Below, piece after piece: positions 1-13,623 of a DNA stretch of 14,441 nt. The stretch comes from an uncultured Bacteroidales bacterium (lineage in GTDB: Bacteria; Bacteroidota; Bacteroidia; Bacteroidales; Paludibacteraceae), in contig CALZHO010000007.1 of assembly GCA_945787425.1 (NCBI GenBank), positions 1-14,441 on the forward strand, written 5' to 3'. The number at the start of each line of letters is the position of its first letter. Position 1 is the first letter of the stretch. The notes below the pieces were generated by a model. That model saw only the letters and a list, made by a program, of their open reading frames with translations. It did not search any database and was not told where the DNA came from. The position numbers and the translations under genes were made by a program.

Positions 1-615
1 ATCCAGCACACGTGCATCCATATCTTTCTTCTCGCTATTGCAGATATAAGGAGGATTGCTGACAATAATATCGGGTATCGGGAATGGGGTATCGGATATA
101 GGCGATAGGATGTCGGTCTGCCACCAATCTACATGTAAGTGATTTCGCTGGGCGTTCTCTTTTGCGACCTCCAATGCCTTTTGACTAATATCCAATCCTG
201 TTATTTGCCAAAGAGGAGCGCCCCTCTTTAATGCCAGCGCAATACAACCGCTACCAGTACCGATATCCCATACGCGCAATGGTTGGTGGGTATCGCAAAC
301 GGACAAGACCCACTCCACCAACTCTGCTGTTTCTGGACGGGGAATAAGGGTCGCAGGAGTAACACGCAAGTCAAGTCCCATCCACTCTGTATGACCAAAA
401 ATATATTGTATCGGTTCGTGCGTGCGAAGTTTTTGCAAAATAACTTCTAATTCTTGCAAATGTGCAAATTTTGTTGTACCTTTGCAGTCGGTTAGAAGTT
501 GCGTGCGGGTCATACCAGTGGTTTCCTCAAGAATCCAATATGCCAGTTCACGCAATTCTTCTTCAGGATAGAATCCTCGTAACTCAGAAATAATATAGTT
601 AATCAATTGTTTCAC
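1..615 (-). CDS. prmC: Peptide chain release factor N5-glutamine methyltransferase PrmC (HemK), N-terminal part, cut by window edge
   Basis: PrmC methylates the glutamine of the GGQ motif in release factors RF1 and RF2, using S-adenosylmethionine, in the cytoplasm. The frame is open for 205 codons from a GTG at 615-613 to the window edge; family members are about 280 residues, so roughly 75 are missing. An N-terminal helical domain (residues 1-75) precedes the Rossmann methyltransferase domain. That domain has the SAM loop VWDIGTGSGC at 115-124 and the diagnostic NPPY motif at 187-190, which binds the substrate glutamine. The GTG start is chosen because the protein then begins as family members do, and because no ATG occurs before residue 35. 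Residues 167-183, just before NPPY, are encoded by a 7-bp tandem repeat. The gene is divergent from ribD. A promoter lies almost on the start codon, which suggests a leaderless mRNA. Confidence 0.93.
   Translation of the reverse strand, partial: MKQLINYIISELRGFYPEEELRELAYWILEETTGMTRTQLLTDCKGTTKFAHLQELEVILQKLRTHEPIQYIFGHTEWMGLDLRVTPATLIPRPETAELVEWVLSVCDTHQPLRVWDIGTGSGCIALALKRGAPLWQITGLDISQKALEVAKENAQRNHLHVDWWQTDILSPISDTPFPIPDIIVSNPPYICNSEKKDMDARVLD
68..116 (-). repeat. Heptanucleotide tandem repeat inside prmC (7 units)
   Basis: Seven consecutive 7-bp units fill exactly 49 bp. On the plus strand every unit ends in GG, for example ATATCGG, GTATCGG (twice) and CGATAGG; read on the prmC sense strand, CC recurs every 7 bp. 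The array encodes PrmC residues 167-183, rich in Pro, Ile, Ser and Asp, in the variable loop before the NPPY motif. The period is seen directly; the origin by tandem expansion is inferred. Confidence 0.85.
453..484 (+). promoter_or_regulatory. Candidate ribD promoter inside prmC
   Basis: On the plus strand CTTG at 453-456 is followed, after 20 bp, by TACCTTTG at 477-484. This matches the Bacteroidota -33/-7 pattern (TTG, then TAnnTTTG). Transcription would start near 488-490, about 147 nt before the ribD ATG at 637, giving a leader antisense to the first codons of prmC. It is the best plus-strand match ahead of ribD, but chance occurrence inside a gene cannot be excluded. Confidence 0.45.
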
Positions 616-619
616 GCTG

Positions 620-650
620 CAAAGGTACGAAAAAAAATGGAAAGTGCAAA
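620..650 (-). promoter_or_regulatory. Promoter of prmC, nearly overlapping its start codon
   Basis: On the minus strand TTTG (650-647) and TACCTTTG (627-620) are separated by 19 bp, a full match to the Bacteroidota -33/-7 consensus. The -7 box ends only 4 nt before the GTG at 615-613, so the transcript would begin within a few nucleotides of the start codon. The -33 box lies inside the first codons of ribD. Confidence 0.65.
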
Positions 651-1692
651 ATTATATATCAATCGTTGTTTACAATTAGCGCGATTAGGCGAGTACTCTG
701 TTGCTCCCAACCCCATGGTAGGAGCCGTATTGGTGCACCATAGTGCCCATGGCGATGTGATTCTTGGCGAAGGTTGGCATATGCAATATGGAGGTCCACA
801 TGCGGAACCTAACTGCATACACAATGCAGAAGAAGCACACCCAGAAGGGATTGATTATAAGCAATGTACTCTATATGTCAGTTTGGAGCCCTGCAGCCAC
901 TATGGCAAAACGCCCCCATGCGCAGAACTGATTATCCGTAAAGGTATAGGTCGTGTGGTAGTGGGCACATTAGACCCTAATCCCAAAGTGGCAGGTCGAG
1001 GCGTGAGCATGATGCAAGAGGCAGGCATAGAGGTGATAGTAGGCGTATTGGAGGCAGAATGTCGCGAACTCAACAAACGTTTCTTTTGCCTGCAAGAGAA
1101 ACATAGACCCTATGTCATCTTGAAATGGGCACAAACAGCAGATGGGTATATAGATAGGCAAAGAGGCGAAAAGCAAGAGGCGAAAGGCAAGGAGATGGAG
1201 GGTCCATTGGTGATTTCTACGCCACTTACCAAACAATTAGTACATCAGCAACGCGCTGAGAATATGGCCATTATGGTAGGCACACGCACGGTGTTATTAG
1301 ACAATCCCCGTTTGCTAACCACCCATTGGAGCGGCAGAAATCCTATACGCATTACTTTGGACAGGCATGGCGTATTGCCTCAAGAGAGCCGAATTTTCTC
1401 CAACGAAGCACCTACCATTGTGTATCGCGACAACACCGATTGGCAATATATCTGTTCCGATTTAGCGAAACGCAACATCCACTCCGTATTGGTAGAAGGA
1501 GGCACAACGCTGCTGCAACATATTTTGGATAGTGGCATCTATGATGAAGTGCATATTGAGGTGAGCTACACCCTTTTGCCCCGCACTGCCAACGAAGAAC
1601 CCAATGGAGTGAAAGCACCCGTATATAAGCCAGTCACACAACCAAAGGTTGTGGATAATCAGCAAATTTACATAGAAAATTTGCATAAATAG
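637..1692 (+). CDS. ribD: Bifunctional riboflavin biosynthesis protein RibD (pyrimidine deaminase/reductase)
   Basis: RibD carries out two successive cytoplasmic steps of riboflavin synthesis: deamination of the diaminopyrimidine made from GTP, then NADPH-dependent reduction of its ribosyl group. The product is 351 residues, normal for the family. The N-terminal deaminase domain (about 1-150) has the zinc site: H55 and E57 in HAE, then C86 and C95 in a PC-x8-C arrangement. The reductase domain starts near residue 158 (KWAQTADGYID) and includes the VLVEGG motif near 284-289. The ATG at 637 is preferred over the in-frame TTG at 607, because the TTG would add ten residues not usual in RibD. Residues 173-189, rich in Lys, Glu and Gly, come from a 7-bp tandem repeat early in the reductase domain. 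No other rib gene and no FMN riboswitch is visible. The gene is divergent from prmC. Confidence 0.95.
   Translation: MESAKLYINRCLQLARLGEYSVAPNPMVGAVLVHHSAHGDVILGEGWHMQYGGPHAEPNCIHNAEEAHPEGIDYKQCTLYVSLEPCSHYGKTPPCAELIIRKGIGRVVVGTLDPNPKVAGRGVSMMQEAGIEVIVGVLEAECRELNKRFFCLQEKHRPYVILKWAQTADGYIDRQRGEKQEAKGKEMEGPLVISTPLTKQLVHQQRAENMAIMVGTRTVLLDNPRLLTTHWSGRNPIRITLDRHGVLPQESRIFSNEAPTIVYRDNTDWQYICSDLAKRNIHSVLVEGGTTLLQHILDSGIYDEVHIEVSYTLLPRTANEEPNGVKAPVYKPVTQPKVVDNQQIYIENLHK
1153..1201 (+). repeat. Heptanucleotide tandem repeat inside ribD (about 7 units)
   Basis: The stretch reads as seven 7-bp units over 49 bp, including AAAGAGG, CAAGAGG and CGAAAGG. Its core is a 14-bp direct repeat (1163-1176 and 1177-1190, 13 of 14 bases identical). 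It encodes RibD residues 173-189, a charged insertion after the conserved TADGYID segment. The minus strand carries the CC phase, as in prmC. Confidence 0.75.
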
Positions 1693-1711
1693 AAAAAAAT
1701 GCGTATCTTTG
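1680..1711 (+). promoter_or_regulatory. Promoter of the SurA-like/OstA-like gene block
   Basis: TTTG at 1680-1683 and TATCTTTG at 1704-1711 are separated by 20 bp, matching the Bacteroidota -33/-7 consensus. The -33 box lies in the last codons of ribD. Transcription would start near 1715-1717, giving a leader of about 24 nt before the ATG at 1740. No comparable promoter is visible in the short gaps before the next three genes, so this probably drives the block through 6415 or further. Confidence 0.7.
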
Positions 1712-1739
1712 CAGGTTGAAAAGTTTATTGGCTCGAGAT

Positions 1740-2582
1740 ATGAAAAAAATTATCATCATACTTCTTGGCATTTTTACACTCCATAGTTGCCATCTTTTCG
1801 AAGAAAGGCGACTGAGTGGTAGTGCCGCAGAATACAATGGCAAGACCATCACACTCAAAGAATTACAGTTGCTCACCGCTGGGCTTACTCCTGAAGATAG
1901 CACCCGCGTAGCTGAGCAATATATTCGTCAATGGGCTATCAACCTCATTGAATATGATATTGCCAAAGATCAATCCAATAAGACCATAGAATTGCTTGTT
2001 GAAGACTATCGTCGCTCCCTATATCTGCATGAATACGAAGAACGACTGGTCGCGCAGTATATGCCTCGCATCATAGAGGACTCGGTGATTCAGTCTTTCT
2101 ATGACATGCACCGCAATCATTTTATTCTGCCCGAAACGATTATCCAAGGCATGCTGCTCGTTATACCTCATGATGCGCCTAACATGGCAGAATTGCGAAA
2201 GAGGATTCAGCACCCAGAAGTGGAGGAAAACATAGAGTGGCTGGAGAAATTTGCTTATCAATATGGCGTGGGCTACGAACTCTTCTTGGAAGAATGGAAA
2301 AGTACCAACGAAGTCATTGTATATCTGCCGTTTAATAAAAACGATTTCGACAAACAGTTGCGCAGCAAACGCCAGATTGAATTGCAAGACTCTATTAACA
2401 CTTTTCTTCTGCAAGTTACGGATATACATCCAGAGGGTACGCACATGCCGCTGGCATATGCACGCAAAGAGATTGAAAACATACTTTTGCATGAGCGTCA
2501 AATAGAATTTCTGCAACGCGAACGAGAAGCATTGTACAACCAAGCGATTAAAGAAGGAAAATTGAAATTATATGAAAAGTAA
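1740..2582 (+). CDS. SurA-like lipoprotein, divergent peptidyl-prolyl isomerase family
   Basis: This is probably a periplasmic, membrane-anchored folding factor for outer-membrane proteins. The 280-residue product opens with a lipoprotein signal: a KK-containing start, a hydrophobic core and the lipobox LHSC with Cys17 as lipidation site. The rest resembles SurA-type chaperones: a helical N-terminal part, a degenerate parvulin-like segment starting near FYDMHRNHFILPE, and a long charged C-terminal helix ending in KLYEK. No clear parvulin catalytic motif is visible, so enzymatic activity is doubtful. The ATG at 1740 is chosen over an in-frame TTG at 1716, because that TTG would fall at the predicted transcription start and would put eight extra residues before the signal peptide. 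The last 11 bases overlap the start of the next SurA-like gene, which implies coupled translation and related roles. Confidence 0.75.
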   Translation: MKKIIIILLGIFTLHSCHLFEERRLSGSAAEYNGKTITLKELQLLTAGLTPEDSTRVAEQYIRQWAINLIEYDIAKDQSNKTIELLVEDYRRSLYLHEYEERLVAQYMPRIIEDSVIQSFYDMHRNHFILPETIIQGMLLVIPHDAPNMAELRKRIQHPEVEENIEWLEKFAYQYGVGYELFLEEWKSTNEVIVYLPFNKNDFDKQLRSKRQIELQDSINTFLLQVTDIHPEGTHMPLAYARKEIENILLHERQIEFLQREREALYNQAIKEGKLKLYEK

Positions 2583-3918
2583 AATTTTGGTTATTGGTTA
2601 TTGGCTATTGGCTATTGGGTGTTTAGCTCAAGATAATATCATTGATGAGGTAATATGGATAGTCGGAGAAGAGGCCATCTTGCGCAGCGAGGTGGAAGAG
2701 GAGCGACTCCGTGCGCAATACGAAGGGCAGCCCATACCAGGTGATCCATATTGCGTTATCCCAGAGCAATTGGCCATCCAAAAACTATTCTTGCACCAGG
2801 CAGAATTGGACTCTATAGAGGCCAACGAGTCTTCTGTTAGCAGTCAAGTGGATATGCGTATGAACTACTATATCTCGCAGATTGGCAGCAAAGAGAAAAT
2901 GGAAGAATACTTCCGCAAAACCAGTAGCGAGATTCGCGAAGAGATGATGACGTCGGTGCGCAACCAGATGACTATTCAGCAGATGCAAAGCAAACTGACC
3001 AAGGGCATCCAGCCCACTCCTGCTGAAGTGCGTCGCTATTTCAATTCGCTGAGCATTGATTCACTTCCCACCATACCCGCGCAGGTGGAAGTACAGATAT
3101 TGAGTATTCAGCCCCCTGTTCCTATAGAGGAAACGGAGCGTATCAAGTCGCAACTGCGCGAGTTCACCGAGCGCGTGACCAGCGGGAATGCTGATTTCAG
3201 CATGTTGGCTCGTCTATACTCTGAAGATACCGAATCTGCCAAACGTGGTGGCGAATTAGGGTTTGTGGGCAAAGGACAATTGGTAAGCGAGTTTGCCGAT
3301 GTGGCGTTTAACCTCACCGATCCCAAACGCGTATCGCGTGTTGTAGAAACGGAATATGGTTTTCATATCATTCAACTCATTGAACGCAAAGGTGAACGTA
3401 TCAATTGTCGCCATATCTTGCTCAAACCTCGCGTATCCTATATGGATAAGCAAAATGCCATCACACGCCTGGATTCTATTCGATCGCTGATTATGGCAGA
3501 CAGTTTGTCATTCGAACTGGCTGTAGCACGATTCTCCGAAGACAAATCTACCATGATGAGCGGTGGCACTATGACCAACCCTAATACCGGAGCCAGCAAG
3601 TTTGAGTACCAAGAACTGCCTCCTGAGATTGCTCGTCAAATATACAACATGAAGGAGGGCGACATCAGCACGCCATTCACCATGATTGACCGCACAAAGA
3701 ACAAAGAAGTGTGTGCCATTGTACGCCTAAAAACAAAACGTGACTCCCACAAGGCCAATCTCACGGATGACTTCCAAACAATCCGTGACATGCTGACCCA
3801 CAAACTCAGCGCCGAAACCATCGACAAATGGATTCGCCAAAAGCAAAAAGAGATATACGTACATATTGATCCTAATTGGCGAGGATGCGATTTCCAATAC
3901 CCTAACTGGGTGCATTGA
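2572..3918 (+). CDS. Periplasmic SurA-like peptidyl-prolyl cis-trans isomerase with two parvulin domains
   Basis: This is likely a SurA-type chaperone and isomerase that escorts unfolded outer-membrane proteins across the periplasm. The 448-residue product has a signal peptide (residues 1-19, cleavage expected after CLA) and a SurA N-terminal helical domain (about 20-165). Parvulin domain 1 (about 172-272) carries ARLYSED, KRGGELGFV and a YGFHII motif. Parvulin domain 2 (about 277-388) starts with NCRHILLK and carries ARFSEDKS and SGGTM. Length and domain order fit the family. The hydrophobic core of the signal peptide (residues 6-17) is encoded by five tandem 7-bp units, which is unusual. 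The ATG overlaps the previous stop codon by 11 bp. The next gene, encoding an OstA-like protein, supports a role in outer-membrane assembly. Confidence 0.9.
   Translation: MKSKILVIGYWLLAIGCLAQDNIIDEVIWIVGEEAILRSEVEEERLRAQYEGQPIPGDPYCVIPEQLAIQKLFLHQAELDSIEANESSVSSQVDMRMNYYISQIGSKEKMEEYFRKTSSEIREEMMTSVRNQMTIQQMQSKLTKGIQPTPAEVRRYFNSLSIDSLPTIPAQVEVQILSIQPPVPIEETERIKSQLREFTERVTSGNADFSMLARLYSEDTESAKRGGELGFVGKGQLVSEFADVAFNLTDPKRVSRVVETEYGFHIIQLIERKGERINCRHILLKPRVSYMDKQNAITRLDSIRSLIMADSLSFELAVARFSEDKSTMMSGGTMTNPNTGASKFEYQELPPEIARQIYNMKEGDISTPFTMIDRTKNKEVCAIVRLKTKRDSHKANLTDDFQTIRDMLTHKLSAETIDKWIRQKQKEIYVHIDPNWRGCDFQYPNWVH
2587..2621 (+). repeat. Heptanucleotide tandem repeat encoding a signal-peptide core (5 units)
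   Basis: Five consecutive 7-bp units: TTGGTTA twice, TTGGCTA twice, then TTGGGTG. Together they encode residues 6-17 (LVIGYWLLAIGC) of the SurA-like protein. The minus strand carries CC every 7 bp. The first four units differ at one position only, so this is among the cleanest arrays in the window. Confidence 0.93.
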
Positions 3919-3944
3919 GAAAAGTGAAAACTGACAGGTGAGAA
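3917..3944 (+). repeat. Weak heptamer array across the SurA-like stop and the ostA start
   Basis: Four 7-bp units fit in register: GAGAAAA, GTGAAAA, CTGACAG and GTGAGAA. The array begins within the TGA stop of the SurA-like gene (3916-3918), and its fourth unit begins with the GTG start codon of the OstA-like gene (3938). The units are degenerate, so this is less certain than the other arrays. Confidence 0.45.
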
Positions 3945-5692
3945 TATTCAAGAGATACATATTATCCATTTTGGGGCTATTGGCGATGGGCAATGGGCTT
4001 TGCAGCGTGTCCGCTGTTGCACAAGACACCACGAAGACCTCTCTCGTTTATCTGGAACATTCGCGAACACTCTCTTTTGATGAGAAACGTCTGCCCGATG
4101 CTCAAATCTTGCGCGGTGATGTATGCTTTCGCCATGACTCCGTGCTGATGTATTGCGATTCTGCCTATTTCTTTGAGAAAGAAAACTCGCTGCATGCTTT
4201 TGGTCGTGTGCATATGGTACAAGGCGACAGTCTGGAAGGCTTTAGCGATGTACTGTATTACAACGGCAATACCAAATTAGCACGCATGCGTCGGCATGTT
4301 CGCCTCATCCACCAAGAAACCGTTTTGACCACTGATAGTCTCAACTACAACCGCGCAAAGAATATAGCATACTATTTCTCGGGCGGTATGATTAAAGACA
4401 GTTTGAACACCCTCACATCGCGCTGGGGACAATATACGCCAGACAATCACCAAGCGCTGTTCCGAGATGATGTGAAACTGGTCAATCCCAAGTTTGTGCT
4501 CACTGCCGACACACTGGGGTATAATACGGAGAGTTATCAGTCGGATTTAGTGGGCCCCACTCAAATCCTGTACGAAGAGGAAACGACTATCCTCTCGACC
4601 AACGGGTGGTACAACACCCAAACCGAAAAATCGCTGTTGCTCGACCGCTCGCAAATCATTCATGCCGATGGTATGACCCTGACGGGAGATACCATCTATT
4701 ACGACAAGTTAAACGGCTATGGTCGCACGATTGGTAATATTGAATCCACCGACTCTGCCAACCAAATGACCCTTTACGGACAGTATAGCGAGGTATGGGA
4801 AGAGACCAACAGAGCGTATGTCACAGACAGTGCAATGCTACTGGATTGGTCGGACTCGACCATGTTTACCTATATGCACGCCGACACGCTATGGACCGAA
4901 GAGATTCCGTATCAAACCTACTCGCTGCTACCGCAAGATAGTGTATGGGTAGATTCCGTACGAACAGCGTTGCCGCCAGACACACTGTGGCAAGACACTG
5001 CCTATCAACAGTTGCGCGCTTTCCACCATGTCCGCATTTACCGCGAGGACATACAAGCTGTCTGTGACTCGGCACGCTATCATGGCAAGGACTCGCTACT
5101 CACCCTCTTTGGATTACCCATCTGCTGGAATGAAGACAACCAGATTTCTGCCGACCAGATTGATATCTATATCAAAGACGAAACGGTGGATTATATGCAC
5201 GGCACCAATAATGCCTTGGCCATTAAGCGCGAAGGAATAGATGAGTTCAATCAGATGGCGGGCAAGGAGATGATTGCCTATGTGCGCGATGGCGATGTCT
5301 ATCAGGTGGACGTGAAGGGTAATGCCGAAACGGTTTTCTATCCACGCGAAAGCGACGGCTCATATATTGGTGTCAATCGCACACAAAGCAGTTTTGTACG
5401 CCTCTACCTCACAGACCGCAAAATTGACCATGTAGTGTTTACCACAGCAACTACGGGTGTTATGATTCCACTGGACCAAGCGCTGCCCGCAGAAAAAACA
5501 TTAGGCGGATTCTTCTGGGCTATTGATGAAAGACCTCTCCAACCGAGCGATATTTTCCTACATCCAGAGCGAACCAAACGACCAGAAAAGACCATCACAT
5601 CCGCTACGGCTGAGGAAAAAGAGGAAGAGGAGGAAGAGGATTCCCCAAAAAAGAATCGAAGAAGAAGAAATACGAATCAAACAAATAGATAA
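3938..5692 (+). CDS. OstA-like (LptA/LptD N-terminal-like) protein, probable lipopolysaccharide transport factor
   Basis: The 584-residue product probably belongs to the OstA-like family of Bacteroidota, related to the lipopolysaccharide bridge protein LptA and the periplasmic domain of LptD. A signal peptide (residues 1-28, cleavage expected near VSAVAQD) precedes many short beta-strand repeats of the OstA type, such as ILRGDVCFRHDSVLMYCDSAYFF, cited here only by its start ILRGDVCF, AFGRVHMVQGDSL and LTTDSLNYNRAKNIAYY, which suggest stacked beta-jellyroll folds. The C-terminal tail (about 554-584) is low in complexity: an acidic run of Glu followed by basic KKNRRRR. The start is a GTG at 3938, the only start that leaves a normal signal peptide. 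Part of that peptide (residues 11-22) is encoded by 7-bp repeat units. The gap to the previous gene is 19 bp. Export of lipopolysaccharide is inferred from family and neighbours. Confidence 0.82.
   Translation: MRIFKRYILSILGLLAMGNGLCSVSAVAQDTTKTSLVYLEHSRTLSFDEKRLPDAQILRGDVCFRHDSVLMYCDSAYFFEKENSLHAFGRVHMVQGDSLEGFSDVLYYNGNTKLARMRRHVRLIHQETVLTTDSLNYNRAKNIAYYFSGGMIKDSLNTLTSRWGQYTPDNHQALFRDDVKLVNPKFVLTADTLGYNTESYQSDLVGPTQILYEEETTILSTNGWYNTQTEKSLLLDRSQIIHADGMTLTGDTIYYDKLNGYGRTIGNIESTDSANQMTLYGQYSEVWEETNRAYVTDSAMLLDWSDSTMFTYMHADTLWTEEIPYQTYSLLPQDSVWVDSVRTALPPDTLWQDTAYQQLRAFHHVRIYREDIQAVCDSARYHGKDSLLTLFGLPICWNEDNQISADQIDIYIKDETVDYMHGTNNALAIKREGIDEFNQMAGKEMIAYVRDGDVYQVDVKGNAETVFYPRESDGSYIGVNRTQSSFVRLYLTDRKIDHVVFTTATTGVMIPLDQALPAEKTLGGFFWAIDERPLQPSDIFLHPERTKRPEKTITSATAEEKEEEEEEDSPKKNRRRRNTNQTNR
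3968..4002 (+). repeat. Heptanucleotide tandem repeat encoding the ostA signal-peptide core (4-5 units)
   Basis: Four clean 7-bp units, GGCTATT, GGCGATG, GGCAATG and GGCTTTG (3975-4002), with a fifth weaker unit before them. GG recurs every 7 bp on the plus strand. They encode residues 11-22 (ILGLLAMGNGLC) of the OstA-like protein, in the same relative position as the repeat in the preceding SurA-like gene. Confidence 0.8.
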
Positions 5693-6424: not shown

Positions 6425-6456
6425 CTTTAACCTTTGGCCTTTAAACTATAAACTTT
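6425..6456 (+). repeat. Heptamer array abutting the dnaG start codon
   Basis: The gap before dnaG reads as 7-bp units CTTTAAC, CTTTGGC, CTTTAAA and CTATAAA, with a final CTTT running directly into the ATG at 6457. It is pyrimidine-rich on the coding strand. TAACCTTTG (6429-6437) resembles a -7 box, but with three bases instead of two in the spacer, so a promoter here is not supported. Confidence 0.75.
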
Positions 6457-8475
6457 ATGATACCTCGCGAAACCATTGATAGAATATTCTCCGCAGCTCG
6501 CATCGAAGATGTGGTAGGCGACTATGTATCGCTCAAGAAACGCGGTGCCAATCTGATTGGCCTCTGCCCCTTCCACGATGAGAAGACGGGCTCTTTCACC
6601 GTCTCGCCCAGCAAAGGTATCTTCAAATGTTTTGGTTGCGGCAAGGCAGGCCACTCCGTGGGTTTCATCATGGAGATTGAGCAATGCTCCTATATAGAGG
6701 CTATTCGCCAACTGGCAAAGAAATACCATATTGAGATAGAAGAACGCGAGCTCACCGCTGAAGAAAAGCAGAAGCAAGACGATCGCGAGTCGATGTTCAT
6801 TGTCAATGAGTTTGCCAACAAATGGTTTCACGAGCAACTGTGGAACACCCCCGAAGGCACAGCCGTGGCGATGAGCTACCTGCGCCAACGCGGACTGCGT
6901 GAGGATATTATTCGCAAGTTCCAAATAGGGTATTCCCCCGAAAAAGCCGCCCTCTGGGATGTGGCTAAGAAGAAAGGTTTCCAAGAGAAATACCTGCTCA
7001 ACGACTCGCAAAATGCACCATACATTGGCACAGGTGTCTGCGGCAAGAGCGAGAACGGTAAACTCTATGACCGCTTCCGCGGACGCGTGATGTTCCCATT
7101 CTTGTCGGTCAGTGGCAAAGTGGTGGGTTTCTCAGGTCGCTTGATGGTCAAGAACGACAAGGTGGGTAAGTATGTCAATTCGCCAACCTCGCTCATCTAC
7201 GAGAAGCATAACGAACTCTTTGGACTCTATCAAGCCAAGCAAGCCATATCCAAAAACAACAGTTGCTACCTCGTGGAGGGACAGATGGATGTTATTCAAC
7301 TGGTGCAATCGGGCATAGAGAACGTCGTAGCATCTGGCGGTACGGCTCTGACCATTAACCAGATACGCCTCATTCATCGTTTCACAGAGAACATCATTCT
7401 GCTCTACGATGGCGACAAAGCAGGTATCAAAGCTGCCTTGCGCGGTATAGATATGATGCTGGAGGAAGGTATCAATGTGCGCATCATATTACTCCCTGAG
7501 GGAGAGGACCCCGACAGCTTCGCTAAGAGCCATAACGCCTCCGACCTCAAGGAGTTCTTGGACAATAACCAACATGATTTTATCCGCTTCAAGACCCAAC
7601 TGCTGATGGAGGACGCGCAAAACGACCCCTCTAAACGCTCGGAGATGATTCTGCAAATCGTGCGCTCGATAGCCGTTATTCCTGATATTATCAAACGACA
7701 AGTATATATCAAAGATACAGCCACTCTGCTCTCCATGCCCGAAGATGTACTGACGCGCAAAGTGAATGAGATACGCAAGAAGGAGGCAGAAGAACGCAAG
7801 AAACGAAAAGAAACAGAGCAACGCCAAACAGACAATAGTCAGGCAGAGACACAGCCAGACACGCCTACTATCACTGCCGCCATGGAGCAACGCGAAGAGC
7901 AACACCTTACACACAAAGAGCGCAATATTCTCAATCTCATACAGGTGCTCATACGCTATGGCGAACGAGTACTCTATCAAACGGAAGACCAAATCATCAC
8001 TACGGGGGAATACATCATCTCCGAGATGAAGAATGATAGCATCGATATTGCCAACCCGCTATTTCAGCAGGTGATTGATGAATATATCGCCAACTACCAG
8101 ACGCCTAACTTCGTGGCTTCGGTGTTTTTCCAGCACCACCCTGACACCCATATTAGCCAACTGGCGGTGGACATGATTGCCGACAAATACCAACTCAGCC
8201 GTATGTATAGCAAACGTAGTATCTCTGAGAATGTGGTTCAAGAAGTGCAGCAAGACGAAACTACCATTCTGCCCGAATTGGTACAGCGCCTGCTATTGGA
8301 ACTTAAATACACCGTTGTGGATGAACGTATTGATAGCATGCAACGTCTTCTCAAAGAGGCGCAAAACAATAATGATTGGCAACTCATCACAGCCATTCTG
8401 GAGCAGCAACCCCAACTGATGGAAATTCGCCAACAACTCTGTCGCGCACTTGGCAACCGTGTTATCGTCAGATAA
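6457..8475 (+). CDS. dnaG: DNA primase DnaG
   Basis: DnaG makes the RNA primers for lagging-strand synthesis and works with the replicative helicase DnaB. The 672-residue product has the three expected parts. The zinc-binding domain has C37, H40, C58 and C61. The catalytic core has the RFRGRVMFP motif (206-214) and a TOPRIM fold with VEGQMD (E274 as the conserved acidic residue), YDGDKAG (D318, D320) and DPDSF (351-355). A charged linker rich in Lys, Glu and Gln (about 430-480) leads to the C-terminal helicase-binding domain. The protein is complete and all key residues are present. The start at 6457 gives the usual MIPRETIDRI opening. The 41-bp gap upstream is mostly a heptamer array, with no Shine-Dalgarno sequence. 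No rpoD or rpsU neighbour is present. Confidence 0.97.
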   Translation: MIPRETIDRIFSAARIEDVVGDYVSLKKRGANLIGLCPFHDEKTGSFTVSPSKGIFKCFGCGKAGHSVGFIMEIEQCSYIEAIRQLAKKYHIEIEERELTAEEKQKQDDRESMFIVNEFANKWFHEQLWNTPEGTAVAMSYLRQRGLREDIIRKFQIGYSPEKAALWDVAKKKGFQEKYLLNDSQNAPYIGTGVCGKSENGKLYDRFRGRVMFPFLSVSGKVVGFSGRLMVKNDKVGKYVNSPTSLIYEKHNELFGLYQAKQAISKNNSCYLVEGQMDVIQLVQSGIENVVASGGTALTINQIRLIHRFTENIILLYDGDKAGIKAALRGIDMMLEEGINVRIILLPEGEDPDSFAKSHNASDLKEFLDNNQHDFIRFKTQLLMEDAQNDPSKRSEMILQIVRSIAVIPDIIKRQVYIKDTATLLSMPEDVLTRKVNEIRKKEAEERKKRKETEQRQTDNSQAETQPDTPTITAAMEQREEQHLTHKERNILNLIQVLIRYGERVLYQTEDQIITTGEYIISEMKNDSIDIANPLFQQVIDEYIANYQTPNFVASVFFQHHPDTHISQLAVDMIADKYQLSRMYSKRSISENVVQEVQQDETTILPELVQRLLLELKYTVVDERIDSMQRLLKEAQNNNDWQLITAILEQQPQLMEIRQQLCRALGNRVIVR

Positions 8476-8490: not shown

Positions 8491-8553
8491 TCTACACCAC
8501 TCTAAACAATTCTACACCACTCTAAACAACTCTAAACAACTCTACCCCACTCT
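8491..8553 (+). repeat. Decanucleotide tandem repeat running into the radical SAM gene start (6 units)
   Basis: Six consecutive 10-bp units occupy 8491-8550: TCTACACCAC twice, TCTAAACAAC twice, TCTAAACAAT, and TCTACCCCAC. A seventh begins TCTATG, so the ATG start codon at 8554 is formed at the position where other units read TCTA. The array takes up nearly the whole gap after dnaG (8476-8553). The same unit family recurs at 10271 and 14313. Confidence 0.95.
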
Positions 8554-9315
8554 ATGCTCTTCGACTCTATCGTATATGGCCCTATCCGTTCGCGCCGCTT
8601 GGGCGTGTCCTTGGGAATGAACCTCATGCCCACCACTGCCAAACTCTGCACGTTTGATTGCGTGTATTGCGAATGTGGATGGAATCAGCCCATCTCGCAT
8701 CCTATCCTTCCCACCCGCGAACAAGTGCGCGAGGCACTCGCCTCTCGCCTTATCGCCTTATCGCCTAATAGTCTTGATGTCATCACTTTCAGTGGCAATG
8801 GCGAACCCACCCTGCACCCTGATTTCTTGGGTATCATTGAGGACACTTGCGCCCTGCGCGACCAATACCATCCACAAGCCAAGATTTCGGTACTCAGCAA
8901 CTCTACCCAACTCGGGCGACCAGATGTGCTGGAAGCCTTGCACCTATGCGATAATCGCATCTTGAAACTGGACTCTGCCATCGATGCCACCATGCGCCTG
9001 ATTGACAAGCCCGTCAATCCCAATCTAACCGTAGAGCAGATTGCACAATGGTTGGCATTGTTTGATGGCGATTTCACGTTGCAGACCTGCTTCCTGCGTG
9101 GTGAATACTGTGGGCAAACAATCGACAACACCACCAGCGAAGAACTCAACGCTTGGTACGCTATGGTGGACCGATTACACCCCAAGCAGGTCATGATCTA
9201 TGTCATTGACCGCGCTACACCGCTACAAACATTATCCAAAGTGCCTGCCCACGAGATGGAAGCCATAGCTGCTCCTCTGCGAGAAAAAGGTATAGATGTT
9301 ATTGTCAGCGCATGA
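8554..9315 (+). CDS. Radical SAM protein, COG0731-type (Fe-S oxidoreductase related to TYW1)
   Basis: The 253-residue product is a radical SAM enzyme. C32, C36 and C39 form the CxxxCxxC site for the 4Fe-4S cluster that cleaves S-adenosylmethionine, and GNGEP (81-85) is the GGE-like SAM-binding motif. The opening GPIRSRRLGVSLGMN fits the COG0731 group, known members of which resemble the wybutosine enzyme TYW1. The substrate here is unknown, and tRNA modification is only a possibility. C41 follows the cluster motif closely and is an extra cysteine. Residues 63-72 (ASRLIALSPN) are encoded by 7/8-bp repeat units. The start codon sits in the last unit of a 10-bp tandem repeat. The TGA stop overlaps the next ATG by four bases (ATGA), so translation is probably coupled to the glycosyltransferase. 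Confidence 0.88.
   Translation: MLFDSIVYGPIRSRRLGVSLGMNLMPTTAKLCTFDCVYCECGWNQPISHPILPTREQVREALASRLIALSPNSLDVITFSGNGEPTLHPDFLGIIEDTCALRDQYHPQAKISVLSNSTQLGRPDVLEALHLCDNRILKLDSAIDATMRLIDKPVNPNLTVEQIAQWLALFDGDFTLQTCFLRGEYCGQTIDNTTSEELNAWYAMVDRLHPKQVMIYVIDRATPLQTLSKVPAHEMEAIAAPLREKGIDVIVSA
8741..8769 (+). repeat. Heptamer/octamer repeat inside the radical SAM gene
   Basis: CC recurs at 8741, 8748, 8756 and 8764 (spacing 7, 8, 8), with the unit CCTTATCG twice. It encodes residues 63-72, between the cluster-binding region and the GNGEP motif. The 15 bp GCCTCTCGCCTTATC (8740-8754) recur exactly at 12690-12704, in the gap between deoC and the NfnAB fusion. Confidence 0.7.
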
Positions 9316-10295
9316 AAATTCTGATTGCACCGCTCAACTGGGGACTGGGTCATGCCACCCGTTGTATCCCGCTTATCCGCCACTATCTGGCAGCAGGCGA
9401 TGAAGTAGTGTTGGGTGGAGATGGTGAGAGTATTCTGTTGCTTCGCCAAACTTTTCCCACGTTGCGTGTCATAGATCTACCTTCGCTGGAACTGCGCTAT
9501 ACCGATAATGCTCAGCAGCGCGGTTTTTATCTGCGCGCCATACCCGCACTCATACGCTTCACTATAGCCGATTACTACTACCTTCGCCAGCAGTTGGCGA
9601 TCGAACACTTCGATTTGGTCATCTCCGATAATCGCTTTGGGCTCTTCTCGCGCCAGACGCGCTGTGTGTATATGACGCACCAGCTCTATGTGCAATTGCC
9701 TAAGCGCTTGAGGGTATTCCAACCCCTCGCGCGCGCATTGCACGCGTGTATATATAAGAGGTATAACGAAGTATGGGTACCCGATTATGCTGACCCTATA
9801 AATAACCTTGCAGGTGCATTGGCACATGGTCATCGCTTTGACCAACAAGCCAAGTATATTGGTCCGCTATCGCGGTTCAGCCATTTGGAAGCCAAAAGCC
9901 AGAATCCGGAAGAATGGACTGGTGTCCAGAAACCAGAAGCCAGTGCTCCAATCATCGCCATTCTGTCGGGATTAGAGCCCCAGCGCACACTGTTTGAGCA
10001 ATCGCTCATCGCCCGTTTTAAGGAGAGCACTGAGCCTGTCTTCATCGTGCGAGGCAAGATAGGTGGTCCAGCTACTGCTACGCAGATAGGTGCAGTCACG
10101 CTGGTGCCACATATGAACGATGAGCAGCTAATGCCGCTCATGCAGCAAGCAAAAAAAATAATCGTGCGTAGTGGCTACAGCACGATTATGGATTTATCTG
10201 TATTGGGATTGCTATGCAAAGCAGAGTTCCACCCTACTCCTGGGCAAAGCGAACAAGAATATCTCGCCACGCTACACCACTCTACACCACTCTAA
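9312..10295 (+). CDS. GT28/MurG-like glycosyltransferase, C-terminus replaced by repeat sequence
   Basis: The 327-residue product resembles the MurG-like glycosyltransferases (GT-B fold) found across Bacteroidota. The N-terminal lobe starts with APLNWGLGHATRCIPLI, with the glycine-rich loop that binds the donor or acceptor, and includes LVISDNRFG (102-110). The C-terminal lobe starts near IIAILSGLEPQRT and has the VRSGYSTIMDL and HPTPGQSEQEYLA motifs (near 285-319). Donor and acceptor are unknown. Right after QEYLA the protein ends in TLHHSTPL (320-327), encoded by a 10-bp repeat. Relatives normally continue with a further helix, so the C-terminus looks clipped. A 7-bp repeat encodes the linker between lobes (residues about 193-212). 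The ATG overlaps the stop of the radical SAM gene. The gene is convergent with the NfnAB fusion, 6 bp away. Confidence 0.82.
   Translation: MKILIAPLNWGLGHATRCIPLIRHYLAAGDEVVLGGDGESILLLRQTFPTLRVIDLPSLELRYTDNAQQRGFYLRAIPALIRFTIADYYYLRQQLAIEHFDLVISDNRFGLFSRQTRCVYMTHQLYVQLPKRLRVFQPLARALHACIYKRYNEVWVPDYADPINNLAGALAHGHRFDQQAKYIGPLSRFSHLEAKSQNPEEWTGVQKPEASAPIIAILSGLEPQRTLFEQSLIARFKESTEPVFIVRGKIGGPATATQIGAVTLVPHMNDEQLMPLMQQAKKIIVRSGYSTIMDLSVLGLLCKAEFHPTPGQSEQEYLATLHHSTPL
9892..9946 (+). repeat. Heptanucleotide repeat in the interdomain linker of the glycosyltransferase
   Basis: CC recurs at 9892, 9899 and 9906, and again at 9926, 9933 and 9940, with units such as CCAAAAG, CCAGAAA and CCAGAAG. The two groups are 20 bp apart, one base short of three units. 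It encodes residues 194-212 (KSQNPEEWTGVQKPEASAP), between the N- and C-terminal lobes of the GT-B fold. Confidence 0.75.
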
Positions 10296-10310
10296 ACACT
10301 TCTACACCAC
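10271..10310 (+). repeat. Decanucleotide repeat spanning the convergent gene ends (4 units)
   Basis: Four 10-bp units: GCTACACCAC, TCTACACCAC, TCTAAACACT and TCTACACCAC. The plus-strand TAA stop of the glycosyltransferase (10293-10295) lies in the third unit. The minus-strand TAG stop of the NfnAB fusion (10304-10302) lies in the fourth. The array also encodes the last residues of both proteins. No stem-loop terminator is visible here. Confidence 0.92.
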
Positions 10311-12668
10311 CCCACTCTCAATCAGGTACTCATCCATTGCCTTTGCTGCTTTGCGACCATCCGACATAGCAAGGATGACAGTTGCACCTCCACGAACAAT
10401 ATCGCCTCCTGCAAAAAGCATTGGCAATGATGACTGCATCTGCTCATTGACTACTATCGTTCCTTTCTTTGATATTTCTAATCCTGCCACCGTGGATGGA
10501 ATCAATGGGTTTGGACTCACGCCCACGCTCACGATAACCAGGTCCACAGGCAGTGTCACCGTCTTTCCTTCCACCGCTACAGGGCTTCTGCGTCCTGACT
10601 CATCGGGCTCGCCCAAGGTCATTACTTGCAGTACGGCTTCTGCTACGCGTCCTTGTTCAGAAGCGTGATACTCGATTGGGTTGTGCAGGGTCATAAACTC
10701 TACGCCCTCTTCTTTGGCATGTCGCACCTCTTCCACGCGGGCAGGCATCTCCTCTTCGCTACGGCGATACACGATGATAGCACGCTGTGCACCCAATCGT
10801 TTGGCTGTACGCACGGCATCCATAGCGGTATTTCCGCCACCCACCACCATCACGGTTTTCGCACGTAGCAATGGCGTATCATTATCTTGTGCAGCAGCCC
10901 CCATGAGGTTCACACGCGTGAGGTACTCATTGCAGGACATCACGCCATTGAGGTTCTCGCCAGGGATATTCATGAAGCGTGGCAATCCAGCACCACTGCC
11001 TACAAAGATACCTTTGAATCCTTGTGCCTGCAGGTCCTCTATGGTCAGTGTCTTACCAATAATCGTATCGCACTGGAACGTCACACCCAATCGGCGCAAG
11101 CCCTCTATCTCGCGATCTACGACAGCGTTAGGCAAACGGAATTCTGGAATACCATAGCGTAATACGCCACCCACTTCGTGTAGAGCCTCGAAGACGGTCA
11201 CTTGGTAACCCAACTTAGCCATATCGCCTGCAAAAGCCAATCCCGCAGGACCACTACCCACCACCGCTATTTTGTTCTCTTCGCTCACGTTAACGGCTTC
11301 GCGTGGGTGGTTGGCTTCGCTCACGTTGGTGGCAGAGGCGTTAGCAGCCGTATAATCCGCCACAAAACGTTCCAGATAACCAATAGCCACAGGTTCGTGT
11401 CCCATCTTCACATGGATACATTGCGCCTCGCATTGTTTCTCTTGTGGGCACACGCGTCCGCATACAGCAGGCAGCGTGCTGCTTTGTTGAATCACTTCCG
11501 CAGCACCTACCAGATTGCCCACCTCTACTTGCTTGATAAAACCAGGTATATTGATATTCACTGGGCAACCTGTCACGCAGGTGGGGTTTTTGCAATCCAA
11601 GCAGCGATGTGCCTCTGTGATGGCTTGCTCAAAGGTCAGACCTTGATTCACCTCTTTGTATAGCGATTGCACACGTACCTCAGGTGCCAGTTCTGGCATC
11701 TTCACACGTGGTATAGCCACACGCTCTTTGGCCTTGAGGTTCGCTTCGCTCACGTTGGTGGCTAAAGCGTTATGGGCTTCGCGTGGGCGATTCGCTTCGC
11801 TCGCGTCGGGGGCGGAAGCGTTATGAGTAGAGTCGTTGGTAGTAGAATCGTGGTGCTGATATACTTCGTAGGCATTTTTCTCCTCTGCGGTGTACTGGCG
11901 AAGACGGGAGAGCATCTCATCGAAATCCACTGCGTGGGCATCAAACTCTGGACCGTCCACACAAACGAATTTCGTTTTGCCACCCACCGTCACGCGACAC
12001 GCGCCGCACATGCCTGTACCGTCCACCATGATGGTGTTCAGACTGGCTTCGGTAGGAATATTGTATTTCTTGGTGGTCAGTGCCACAAACTTCATCATGA
12101 TAGCAGGACCGATAGTGATGCACTTGTCCACTTTCTCGCGTTGTATCACTTGCTCCACGCCCATAGTAACCAAGCCCTTCTGACCCATCGAACCATCATC
12201 GGTCATGATAATCAGTTCATCCGACACCGCAGCCAACTGCTCGCGTAGAATGATGAGTTCCGCTGTGCGGGCTGCCAGTACGGTGATAACGCGATTGCCA
12301 GCCTCCTTGAGTGCGCGTGCGATAGGCAACATCGGTGCGGCACCCACGCCACCGCAGGCACAGACCACTGTGCCGAAGTGCTTGATGGTGGTAGCTTTGC
12401 CCAATGGTCCTACCAAGTTTGCCACTTCATCGCCTGGCTCCAGTGCCACCAGTTTGGAACTACTCACACCCATGCGTTGCACCACCAGTGTGATGGTGCC
12501 GCGTTCCTTGTCGGCATCTGCAATAGTGAGTGGCATGCGCTCGCTATGTTTGTCCACGCGCACCATCACAAAGTGACCTGCGCGACGACTATTCGCAATC
12601 AGCGGAGCTTCTAATACCAGCTCCGCCACATTCTCAGAGAAGAATCGTTTTGATATAATCTTAGCCAT
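10302..12668 (-). CDS. Fused NfnA/NfnB-type flavoprotein (ferredoxin-NADP reductase-like subunit plus GltD-like subunit)
   Basis: The 788-residue fusion joins two subunits that are often separate. Residues 1-270 are the NfnA/SudB/PyrK-like part: an FAD site (RMPLTIAD, 44-51), an NAD site (CACGGVGAAPMLP) and a 2Fe-2S site with D216, C221, C224 and C236. Residues about 316-788 are the NfnB/GltD/SudA-like part: two 4Fe-4S sites (C356, C359, C364, C368 and C403, C407, C413, C417), an FAD Rossmann loop (VVGSGPAG, 469-476) and an NADPH Rossmann loop (VVGGGNTAMD, 608-617). The architecture fits NADH-dependent ferredoxin:NADP oxidoreductase, which balances NADH, NADPH and ferredoxin by electron bifurcation. 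Automated annotation often calls it DHOD subunit/glutamate synthase. Two linkers (283-315 and 443-464) hold copies of a 51-bp repeat module. The stop codon lies in a decamer repeat. The upstream neighbour is deoC. Confidence 0.93.
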   Translation of the reverse strand: MAKIISKRFFSENVAELVLEAPLIANSRRAGHFVMVRVDKHSERMPLTIADADKERGTITLVVQRMGVSSSKLVALEPGDEVANLVGPLGKATTIKHFGTVVCACGGVGAAPMLPIARALKEAGNRVITVLAARTAELIILREQLAAVSDELIIMTDDGSMGQKGLVTMGVEQVIQREKVDKCITIGPAIMMKFVALTTKKYNIPTEASLNTIMVDGTGMCGACRVTVGGKTKFVCVDGPEFDAHAVDFDEMLSRLRQYTAEEKNAYEVYQHHDSTTNDSTHNASAPDASEANRPREAHNALATNVSEANLKAKERVAIPRVKMPELAPEVRVQSLYKEVNQGLTFEQAITEAHRCLDCKNPTCVTGCPVNINIPGFIKQVEVGNLVGAAEVIQQSSTLPAVCGRVCPQEKQCEAQCIHVKMGHEPVAIGYLERFVADYTAANASATNVSEANHPREAVNVSEENKIAVVGSGPAGLAFAGDMAKLGYQVTVFEALHEVGGVLRYGIPEFRLPNAVVDREIEGLRRLGVTFQCDTIIGKTLTIEDLQAQGFKGIFVGSGAGLPRFMNIPGENLNGVMSCNEYLTRVNLMGAAAQDNDTPLLRAKTVMVVGGGNTAMDAVRTAKRLGAQRAIIVYRRSEEEMPARVEEVRHAKEEGVEFMTLHNPIEYHASEQGRVAEAVLQVMTLGEPDESGRRSPVAVEGKTVTLPVDLVIVSVGVSPNPLIPSTVAGLEISKKGTIVVNEQMQSSLPMLFAGGDIVRGGATVILAMSDGRKAAKAMDEYLIESGVV
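11277..11342 (-). repeat. 51-bp/17-residue module copy in the second linker of the NfnAB fusion
   Basis: Residues 443-459 read NASATNVSEANHPREAV, followed by a partial second copy NVSEE (460-464). They sit between the 4Fe-4S domain and the FAD Rossmann loop that starts with KIAVVG at 466. The module matches the two copies in the first linker (11724-11822) in protein and DNA; CGCTTCGCTCACGTTGGTGG occurs in both linkers apart from its first base. Confidence 0.8.
11724..11822 (-). repeat. Two tandem 51-bp/17-residue modules in the fusion linker of the NfnAB protein
   Basis: Residues 283-299 (NASAPDASEANRPREAH) and 300-315 (NALATNVSEANLKAKE) are two copies of one module with a 51-bp period, shown by TTCGCTTCGCT at 11740 and again at 11791. 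They fill the joint between the NfnA-like and NfnB-like parts. The stretch is richer in G+C than the genes around it. Confidence 0.82.
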
Positions 12669-12676
12669 AATCCGTG

Positions 12677-12710
12677 CCTATAACCTTTAGCCTCTCGCCT
12701 TATCTCCTAA
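12677..12710 (+). repeat. Heptamer array between deoC and the NfnAB fusion
   Basis: CC recurs on the plus strand at 12677, 12684, 12691, 12698 and 12706 (spacing 7, 7, 7, 8), with units CCTATAA, CCTTTAG, CCTCTCG and CCTTATC. It fills most of the 38-bp gap and reaches into the deoC stop codon (12709-12707). On the coding strand of the fusion it is purine-rich, the opposite sense to the arrays before dnaG and deoC. Confidence 0.75.
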
Positions 12711-13585
12711 AAGTATTTCACCTCCTCGCCCATGATACTCGTGAGCAAGTTGTTTGCCAAGCGACTTGCGCCGAAGCGGAAGGACTGATTATTGAGCCAT
12801 TCTTCGCCCAAAATCTCTTTGACCAAGGTATAGTGTTGCACTGCCTCATCGGTGGTGCTGACGCCCCCCGCTGGCTTGTAGCAAACCTTTTGTCCGGTCT
12901 TAGCTTGCCAATCCTTGATGGCATGGCACATGATATAGGTAGCTTCGGGTGTTGCATTCACGGCAATCTTGCCTGTAGATGTCTTAATGAAGTCTGCTCC
13001 CGCAGCCATCGCCAAGATACTGGCTTTGTAGATGTTCTCTGCTGTTTTCAATGCGCCTGTTTCGAGGATTACTTTCAGGTGTGCATCGCGAATAGCGGCT
13101 TTGATTTCGGAGATCTCATCAACTACTTCTTGGTAGTTTCCTTCGAGGAATTTGCCGATAGAGATGACGATGTCAATCTCTGTTGCGCCTGCGGCCACAG
13201 CCATAGCGGCTTCTGCCACTTTCACCTCGAGGAATGTTTGTGATGCAGGGAATCCCGCAGCCACTGCGGCGATACCGATAGGTTCGGTCAGCACCTCGCG
13301 CACTGTTTCTACCAAAGCGGGATACACGCAGATCGCTGCCACGTTGGGTACGCCAGGGAAGTGACCATCAAAGTCATTCACTTTTTGCGCCATTGTAGCC
13401 ACTTTCTCGGTGGTGTCATCGCCATTGAGGGTGGTGAGATCTATCTGATGAAGGCATTGCATCCACACTTCGCGGGTATTGTTTTCCTCTGTATGTTTTG
13501 CCAGTATGTCGGCAGTATTCTTCTTGACTAACTCATCAGTGAGTACGCAGGGATATTCTGCGAATAGTGATTCAAATTTATCCAT
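12707..13585 (-). CDS. deoC: Deoxyribose-phosphate aldolase
   Basis: DeoC splits 2-deoxyribose 5-phosphate into glyceraldehyde 3-phosphate and acetaldehyde, allowing growth on deoxynucleosides. The 292-residue product is a class I TIM-barrel aldolase with the expected residues: K201 in FIKTSTGK forms the Schiff base, K237 in CYKPAGG is the second lysine, and D138 in EIDIVIS matches the catalytic aspartate. A C-terminal tyrosine (Y291), which reaches the active site in relatives, is kept. The N-terminal region is longer than in E. coli DeoC, which I believe is common in Bacteroidota. The ATG at 13585 gives a natural start. No other deo gene lies in the window, so its grouping with psd and the NfnAB fusion seems to reflect chromosomal position rather than a pathway. 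Confidence 0.96.
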   Translation of the reverse strand: MDKFESLFAEYPCVLTDELVKKNTADILAKHTEENNTREVWMQCLHQIDLTTLNGDDTTEKVATMAQKVNDFDGHFPGVPNVAAICVYPALVETVREVLTEPIGIAAVAAGFPASQTFLEVKVAEAAMAVAAGATEIDIVISIGKFLEGNYQEVVDEISEIKAAIRDAHLKVILETGALKTAENIYKASILAMAAGADFIKTSTGKIAVNATPEATYIMCHAIKDWQAKTGQKVCYKPAGGVSTTDEAVQHYTLVKEILGEEWLNNQSFRFGASRLANNLLTSIMGEEVKYF

Positions 13586-13623
13586 AGTTCGTTTGTTTTA
13601 CGTGTAAAGTTTATCGTGTAAAG
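13586..13623 (-). repeat. Heptamer array (14-bp direct repeat) before the deoC start
   Basis: On the minus strand CTTTACACG occurs at 13623-13615 and 13609-13601, a 14-bp period equal to two 7-bp units. Units read CTTTACA, CGATAAA, CTTTACA, CGTAAAA and CAAACGA, then ACT and the ATG of deoC. It resembles the array before dnaG, which also contains CTTTA and ATAAACTTTA. Confidence 0.7.

Follow-up and report, generated by a model that had tools for sequence, protein, structure and literature searches.

Tandem heptanucleotides dispersed over the genome are known from filamentous cyanobacteria, where they are termed heptanucleotide short tandemly repeated repetitive (STRR) sequences. The present analysis concerns seven-base arrays in a contig of 14,441 nucleotides from an uncultured Bacteroidales bacterium of the family Paludibacteraceae (assembly GCA_945787425.1, contig CALZHO010000007.1; the whole stretch is hereafter called the window) and in its relatives; an earlier note, made from the letters of the window alone, had recorded at least nine sites with unrelated tandem units of 7 bp and had attributed them to a lineage-specific process acting genome-wide.

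Several comparable systems have been described. According to parts of PMC4692102, heptameric repeats are over-represented across many bacterial genomes; arrays of one single unit (GGGAATC or GGGGA(C/T)T) occur in Xanthomonas and Nostoc, are located between the same genes in two Xanthomonas species and are variable there, and three heptanucleotide units are reported for Calothrix. Parts of PMC4679880 document TAACTGA arrays in marine Beggiatoaceae, Cyanobacteria and five Bacteroidetes, mention two sets of them in Paludibacter propionicigenes (a member of the Paludibacteraceae), and propose that a post-transcriptional regulator binds to these arrays. Long simple sequence repeats with units of 5-11 bp, heptanucleotides being the most abundant, were described by Mrazek et al. 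2007 (as cited in PMC4679880 and PMC4692102), with 7 nt regarded as a possible polymerase contact length and slippage proposed (as cited in PMC4679880); the excess of bacterial 7-bp repeats has been on record since then, its cause having only been proposed (as cited in PMC4679880). The arrays presented here share the seven-base step with these systems and are distinguished by the replacement of their units at fixed sites.

Enrichment of seven-base arrays

The window makes up contig 7 in full; the genome is fragmented, with 268 contigs that total 1.34 Mb and a completeness of 62%, and 21 of its contigs (289,037 bp, window included) were sampled. In these 289 kb, 38 segments matching themselves at a distance of seven bases (lag-7 segments) reached a score of at least 10, versus 0.3 in shuffles; lags 3 to 6 yielded 0 to 4 segments, lag 13 none, and lags 8, 9, 10 and 11 yielded 10, 17, 13 and 20, respectively. 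At a threshold of 12, lag 7 retained 28 segments, followed by lag 11 (18), lag 9 (11), lag 10 (8) and lag 8 (5), with at most 2 at lags 3-6. Seven is the main step and not the sole one: arrays of 8 to 11 bp are enriched, too. Within open reading frames (ORFs) of at least 100 aa, 23 lag-7 arrays were counted, versus 1.4 with synonymous codons permuted and the protein kept, and 0.2 with codons shuffled. A period-7 density at the level of codon- and dinucleotide-matched shuffles was the refuting condition set by the earlier note, and the counts do not refute it. Genes were defined as the longest ORFs of at least 100 aa, for this count as well as for the intergenic autocorrelation, density and flank analyses, and some "coding" arrays may for this reason sit in false ORFs.

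Unit turnover at orthologous sites

Five orthologous spacers were compared in up to 38 congener loci (69 spacers kept; those of less than 25 letters were excluded and 6 letters of each gene edge included; L061, a duplicate of L057, was removed here, from the genus counts and from the rows of the SurA tree). A lag-7 segment with a score of at least 8 was present in 27 of the 69 spacers, versus 0.3 in shuffles, a lag-8 segment in 5, and one at any other lag in at most one. Units not more than one substitution apart (any rotation, either strand) were found between species in 10 of 78 same-site pairs and in 29 of 257 pairs from different sites of different genomes. At orthologous spacers, the 7-bp step persists while the unit does not. 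The spacer 3' of dnaG is an example: in the window its units have 10 bp, and those of the congeners are CTTTACA (L054 and L056), CTTTCAA (L057), AATTAAA (L070), TTTAGAG (L071) and CTGAATA (L072).

The nearest relative found was G456, the genome of locus L055 (aligned pieces 75-93% identical, 57.7 kb of columns). Among 17 lag-7 arrays compared with it, the unit was identical in 4, differed by one substitution in 4 and by two in 2, and was quite different in one (TCCTTGC here, TTGACAG there); the remaining 6 were without counterpart above threshold, two of these being more than 90% identical and having merely fallen below it. At this distance, the arrays are largely inherited like other DNA and not hypervariable, with loss or replacement being occasional.

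Array build and shared units

In 172 arrays, adjacent units were 86.6% identical, and identity fell to about 80% (0.79-0.81) at separations of 4 to 8 units. Variants were distributed nearly evenly over the seven columns (319 variable columns versus 328 ± 4.5 expected, i.e. a slight concentration), and transitions made up 0.53 of the unit differences. This build fits a stepwise local duplication followed by ordinary mutation, and not a fixed core kept by selection. The array units are poor in G+C (30-37% versus 46-51% of the genomes) and enriched in AA/TT in all three genomes sampled at length, i.e. this genome and the congeners G035 and G015.

The 38 arrays of this genome comprise 25 distinct units, and the 290 arrays of the genus samples comprise 118. 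Nevertheless, units recur: within one genome, 2.6-4.3% of pairs of arrays at different loci had an identical unit, versus 0.2-0.5% under a circular Markov null (0/300). After exclusion of array pairs with similar flanks or less than 2 kb apart, an imperfect 24-mer was common to 52 pairs (34.0 with the unit order shuffled, maximum 43; 6.6 with the deviations re-placed), and an imperfect 26-mer to 34 pairs (16.6, maximum 23 in 20 runs, and 3.4, respectively). Flank matches in the three genomes numbered 9, 36 and 82, of which no more than 11 per genome were inspected. A single string of 29 bases was found at L070:11623, L135:2928 and L139:11289 in G035 and at L145:10931 in G015, and one 76-bp CACCTTT-type array had 35 matches in this genome, itself included. 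The recurrence of units and strings in the absence of flank similarity makes a certain amount of copying from array to array likely. Exact unit sharing between G015 and G035 (198/6474 pairs) was close to that within G015 (144/3378) and G035 (103/2982), as would likewise be expected if particular heptamers were favored in both; this genome shared few units with the two rich congeners (16/2964 and 22/3154 pairs).

The recurrence of CC, or GG on the other strand, every 7 bp in most arrays, as claimed before, holds for this genome: CC/GG was contained in 23 of 38 consensus units (13.8 with letters shuffled within units, 0/500) and in every unit of 13 of 38 arrays. It is weak in G035 (31/78 versus 24.4, 8/500) and absent in G015 (24/83 versus 25.6, 377/500). 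The CC phase is a trait of the common unit families of this genome, not a rule. A single conserved motif and a genus-wide CC rule were ruled out (118 units in 290 arrays; CC absent in G015).

Distribution in genus, order and phylum

At threshold 12, the 28 lag-7 arrays of this genome compare with 63 for G035 (201 kb) and 73 for G015 (218 kb), i.e. 313-335 per Mb; both congeners were chosen as the array-richest at syntenic stretches, a choice that makes their densities unrepresentative of the genus. The genus was sampled in 41 stretches totalling 681 kb, of which 38 surround genes of the window; they contained 91 lag-7 segments free of N (93 with runs of N). In 24 further families of the order, represented by one stretch each (379 kb in total), there were 3, all in a single genome and not exceeding the counts at lags 6, 9 and 12. 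Twenty stretches from 20 genomes, chosen on their handle numbers among the class entries of the phylum list (368 kb; 19 of the same class, 1 of the same order), contained 8 N-free segments (9 with N), lag 7 being the commonest of lags 3 to 13. A four-unit period-7 pattern was matched in 197 of 395 phylum genomes, where about 0.1 match per genome is expected by chance according to our own arithmetic, and a four-unit period-8 pattern in 99 of 395, most abundantly in families f31 and f49. The "reversed" control of the period-7 search also matched many genomes and is unusable as a null, because a period-7 pattern read backwards remains period-7. In six stretches of pattern-rich genomes, several of them chosen at known matches, no clear general step of 8 was seen in the three f31 genomes among them. 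According to these counts, heptamer arrays are scattered across the phylum, and part of the genus is rich in them.

Within the genus, array density tracks the tree of the SurA-like protein, calculated with the signal peptide left out: 7 state changes were counted, whereas shuffled labels averaged 10.23 and never fell below 8 (0/200; loci of less than 14 kb excluded, 33 of 39 rows used). Eight of the 9 rows outside a 30-row clade (Shimodaira-Hasegawa-like approximate likelihood ratio test 80, drawn open) were without lag-7 array in the sampled stretch, and L067 had one. Of the interpretation in the earlier note, a process that is genome-wide, specific for the period and limited to a clade is supported; the term "lineage-specific" is at most partly supported, given the pattern in 197/395 phylum genomes and the TAACTGA arrays in five Bacteroidetes. 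Seven dnaG loci belonged to named genomes (6 Paludibacteraceae, 1 Bacteroidales), 6 of them from herbivore hindgut samples.

Arrays of 8-bp spacing were observed in G384, G282 and other f31 genomes, with a CTTTG core and changing bases between (e.g. L211:2607); by eye they are unlike the evenly mutated 7-bp arrays, and in places they form head-to-head pairs. Clusters of adjoining 11-bp arrays, in which the unit changes from array to array, are located at L116:1123-2580, L011:13553-13690 and L012:85-245.

Repeats of the window and their position

Array density was 4.6-6 times higher outside than inside ORFs in the three genomes (0.44 versus 0.096, 1.50 versus 0.252 and 1.32 versus 0.275 arrays per kb). 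In the window, a permissive scan (match +1, mismatch −1; null of 200 dinucleotide shuffles) gave 7 lag-7 segments with a score of at least 9, versus 0.42 expected, and 0 to 5 segments at each of the other lags from 4 to 15. Under strict scoring, only 69-109 (14.0) and 2587-2618 (22.5) exceeded 10 among the 7-bp arrays. Of the sites listed by the earlier note, those recovered at this score gave lag-7 segments at 69, 2587, 3975, 6425, 9889, 9926 and 12677; its sites 1153, 8741 and 13586 and its possible site 3917 were not recovered, and three 10-bp arrays had escaped it (strict scores 26.5 for 8491-8554, 16.0 for 10267-10297 and 45.5 for 14313-14400).

The coding arrays (plus strand unless stated) begin with a degenerate one of about six TATCGGG units inside prmC on the minus strand (69..109; score 18, 0.000 expected per shuffled window); it corresponds to residues 167-183 of the protein fragment, directly ahead of the NPPY motif, and PrmC_N and MTS domains were matched. 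In ribD, Tandem Repeats Finder (TRF) detected only a 14-bp (2x7) array within the RibD_C match span (1161..1191, AAGAGGCGAAAAGC, 2.2 copies), with no lag-7 segment of at least 7 at the supposed 7-bp site 1153; the region measures 76 in the window and L055, 64 in L054 and 49 in L057, L059 and L060. A 7-bp array of 4.6 copies of TTGGTTA/TTGGCTA (2587..2623; score 24, 0.000 expected) lies in a SurA/PPIC-type gene, where it apparently encodes the signal peptide (LVIGYWLLAIGCL) of a protein with Rotamase domains, and another (GGCTATTGGCGATGGGCAATGGGC, 3975..3998; score 11, 0.045 expected) in the N-terminal, apparent signal peptide part of an OstA-like gene. For site 8741, alleged to be of 7 bp, TRF gave an array of 8-bp units within the radical SAM gene (TCGCCTTA, 2.8 copies, 8745..8766). 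Two short 7-bp arrays (AAGCCAA... and CCAGAAA..., 9889..9943) lie in a variable stretch of a 327-aa ORF without Pfam match, with scores of 10 (9889-9911, 0.10 expected) and 9 (9926-9943, 0.355 expected); a 10-bp array is present at the end of this ORF (10267..10310), a site at which L054 has 7-bp units. The oxidoreductase gene contains an 18-bp repeat insert (11279..11340, minus strand) between the Fer4_20 (337-443) and Pyr_redox_2 (466-771) matches, a site at which L054 and L055 have 7-bp arrays (GCCTTTC-type and TGTCAAC). These arrays seem to lie where the protein tolerates change: the N-termini of the SurA-like and OstA-like proteins, which by our reading of the sequence look like signal peptides, a RibD stretch that is shorter in four relatives, the stretch ahead of the PrmC active-site motif, and the Fer4_20/Pyr_redox_2 border.

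The spacer arrays are all given on the plus strand. In the surA-ostA spacer, a weak 7-bp array (GAAAAGTGAAAACTGACAGGTGA, 3919..3941) is at chance level (score 8, 0.96 expected per shuffled window); L056, L065 and L070 have longer 7-bp arrays with other units there. The array CTTTAACCTTTGGCCTTTAAACTATAAACTTTA (6425..6457; score 12, 0.005 expected) extends to the start codon of dnaG, in a spacer with lag-7 arrays in 8 congener loci; the spacer between dnaG and the radical SAM gene, with a TCTACACCAC-like 10-bp array in the window (8491..8554), has them in 9. The oxidoreductase-deoC spacer contains CCTATAACCTTTAGCCTCTCGCCT (12677..12700; score 9, 0.355 expected) and 7-bp arrays in L054, L055 and L057 as well. 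The putative 7-bp site 13586 in the deoC-psd spacer is a repeat of 13-14 bp with 2.0 copies (13597..13623), and lag-7 arrays are present there in L057 and L058. Upstream of psd follows a 10-bp array of 8.9 copies (TAGAGTGGTG, 14312..14400).

Some further features were noted. The 10-bp arrays at 8491-8554, 10267-10310 and 14312-14400 belong to one family (TCTACACCAC / TAGAGTGGTG), found also at L012:8321, L017:4940 and L023:650; in the dnaG spacer, the 10-bp type occurs in L055, too, and 7-bp arrays occur in L054 and L056. The inserts 11279-11340 and 11740-11830 of the oxidoreductase gene have a common motif read as NVSEANHPREA, and its DNA motif TTCGCTCACGTT has 3 copies in the window and none in the rest of the 289 kb; in relatives, these sites are occupied by different repeats or linkers. 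Fold z-scores were −0.93 (11270-11345) and −2.46 (11735-11830), and an Rfam search of the window gave 0 matches. In L054, three small hairpins (about 13795-13855; stems GGCGC..GCGCC, GCCAC..GTGGC and GCCC..GGGC, spaced by AATCTTCA) adjoin a 7-bp array, with a fold z-score of −3.67. The commonest 14-mer of the 289 kb was CGCTGCAAAGGTAC (7 copies); stretches of CGCTGCAAAGGTAC / GTACCTTTG type are located at L008:14209-14265, L012:235-335 and 13285-13405, and in the window near 475 and 615, and GTACCTTTG or its complement recurs at many places in the genomes inspected. These stretches presumably resemble the TAnnTTTG promoter element of Bacteroidota.

Origin of the arrays

The explanation favored here, with a probability of roughly one half, is a mutational process in the clade: tandem duplication with a step of 7 nt in unconstrained DNA, together with some copying between arrays. 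In change-tolerant DNA (spacers, signal peptides, linkers, domain borders), short stretches would undergo tandem duplication, preferably in steps of 7 nt and more rarely of 8-11. The most likely mechanism is slippage of the nascent strand or a local template switch at the replication fork, and the step of seven would originate there. New units would be inherited and subsequently accumulate ordinary point mutations; occasionally, an array may be overwritten or seeded by copying from an array of related unit, with recurring unit families as the result. The array DNA would be tolerated as spacer and might sometimes serve as protein sequence. In favor of this explanation are the enrichment at lag 7, inside ORFs as well, the higher density outside ORFs, the position of the coding arrays of the window, the lag-7 arrays in 27 of 69 orthologous spacers, the greater likeness of adjacent units with variants spread almost evenly over the columns, the recurrence of units and imperfect strings at unrelated loci, and the agreement of density with the SurA tree. 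Mismatch repair is reported to act well on loops of 1-3 bp and more poorly on longer ones (parts of PMC4060949); weak repair of longer loops is compatible with the scarcity of short units, yet gives seven no special place. Loss of MutS was rejected as the cause in the two richest genomes sampled, G035 and G015, which have full-strength MutS_V matches (E 4.6e-83 and 2.0e-83, respectively). A MutS_V match of some kind was found in 60 of 61 genomes, a count that includes a weaker class (MutS2-like in our reading), and this partial genome has a weak match only (3.5e-32). In another genome, the match is split in two in different open frames (G026:C17:38161-38726), suggesting a frame break or an assembly error.

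Several observations weigh against this mutational process. A footprint fixed at 7 nt is too narrow a rule for the enrichment of 8-11 bp arrays, slippage alone fails to explain unit families common to unrelated loci and different species, and no polymerase or repair gene was tied to the process. In the pooled intergenic DNA of this genome, the match fraction at lag 7 (0.282) was not above that at lags 8, 9 and 11 (0.281-0.283), so that most of its spacers are ordinary; indeed, just 7 of 101 short spacers bear arrays here (G035: 26/77; G015: 19/76). A change of unit number in steps of 7 bp, which the earlier note proposed to look for, was not supported: length-difference clusters of at least 4 bp against G456 were multiples of seven in 7 of 39 cases, versus about 5.6 by chance, in a comparison with a single related species, and ongoing slippage was therefore not seen.

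The recurrence of units could alternatively be primary, with very short mobile repeats being copied from array to array or to new sites by recombination or by an enzyme and the period being inherited from old founders. Such a dispersal is favored by identical units and degenerate strings at loci whose flanks are dissimilar, in different species as well, and by the 35 matches of the CACCTTT-type array. A replacement at L015:5919 points the same way: the units in G456 are CAGTTGA there, and this family has 9 matches in G456 and 3 in the partial genome studied here. However, 118 distinct units in 290 arrays are many for few founders, 43-74% of the shared strings are kept after shuffling of the unit order, the near-equal sharing between and within G015 and G035 would be expected from a heptamer preference as well, and the identity gradient among neighboring units fits local growth; dispersal as the first cause is a tentative alternative that we consider rather doubtful. 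More speculative, and improbable in our estimation, is a dedicated clade-specific DNA-writing activity (e.g. an error-prone polymerase, reverse transcriptase or recombinase) that lays 7-nt periodic DNA at unconstrained sites with a genome-wide heptamer vocabulary and rewrites the sites with new units. If it existed, spacers, signal peptides and linkers would be repeatedly remade, the step being fixed and the letters free.

Selection for a nucleic-acid-binding protein or regulator reading sites of 7-bp spacing, also raised by the earlier note, would be in line with the fixed spacing, the higher intergenic density, the several arrays adjoining start codons and the regulator proposed for TAACTGA (parts of PMC4679880); it is disfavored and quite unlikely in view of the 118 units without common motif, the unrelated units at orthologous sites (10/78 versus 29/257 within distance 1), the arrays inside genes and the nearly random variants over the columns. 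Phase variation, in which the copy number of contingency repeats switches genes, is very improbable: units of 7 bp within genes would indeed shift the frame, but the arrays are degenerate, the array-bearing genes of the window look like housekeeping genes, and length differences to the nearest relative showed no excess of 7-bp steps. Chance, base composition or codon bias might be invoked for sites 3917, 8741 and 13586, which individually are at chance level or not of 7 bp; as a general cause they are ruled out for the genome sample, with practically no probability left, by counts 16- to >100-fold over dinucleotide, codon and synonymous shuffles. Altogether, the observation of the earlier note is partly confirmed and its interpretation partly supported.

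For the mutational process, the genus offers favorable material: species with about 100 to 335 arrays per Mb and others with few or none in the sampled stretches, at conserved gene order. The cause thereby becomes testable, with the same spacers traceable through birth, inheritance and replacement of units, and with the replication and repair genes of rich branches comparable to those of poor ones. The analysis also indicates how repeat units can give rise to spacers, apparent signal peptides and linkers.

Comparison with known repeats

The dominance of 7-bp units and the excess of 5-11 nt repeats above expectation (38 versus 0.3) connect the arrays with the long simple sequence repeats; unlike these, they are degenerate and of many units, and orthologous sites keep the period and change the unit. 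With the cyanobacterial STRR they share the dispersal of tandem heptanucleotides over the genome. In contrast to the three units in Calothrix (parts of PMC4692102), there are 25 units in 289 kb here instead of a few fixed ones, as well as arrays of 8-11 bp. The TAACTGA system resembles them in the position of heptamer arrays between genes near start codons and, with its sets in Paludibacter propionicigenes, is present in the same family; it consists of a single unit with related heptamers seldom repeated, whereas TAACTGA was found in 0 of 290 array units here. As in Xanthomonas and Nostoc, related species have arrays at the same intergenic positions, and these vary in length and sequence; there, the unit is single and G-quadruplex-forming, and GGGAATC or GGGGA(C/T)T is the unit of 0 of 290 arrays here. 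Finally, copies at unrelated loci have sequence in common beyond composition, a likeness to short mobile repeats of the repetitive extragenic palindromic or small dispersed repeat (REP/SDR) kind. Searches of the open-licence literature found no description of heptamer arrays that have many units and exchange them at fixed sites. The arrays are a dense, many-unit and degenerate form of the known heptanucleotide repeats, unusually dense in part of the genus, and their informative part is that the step persists while the letters are replaced.

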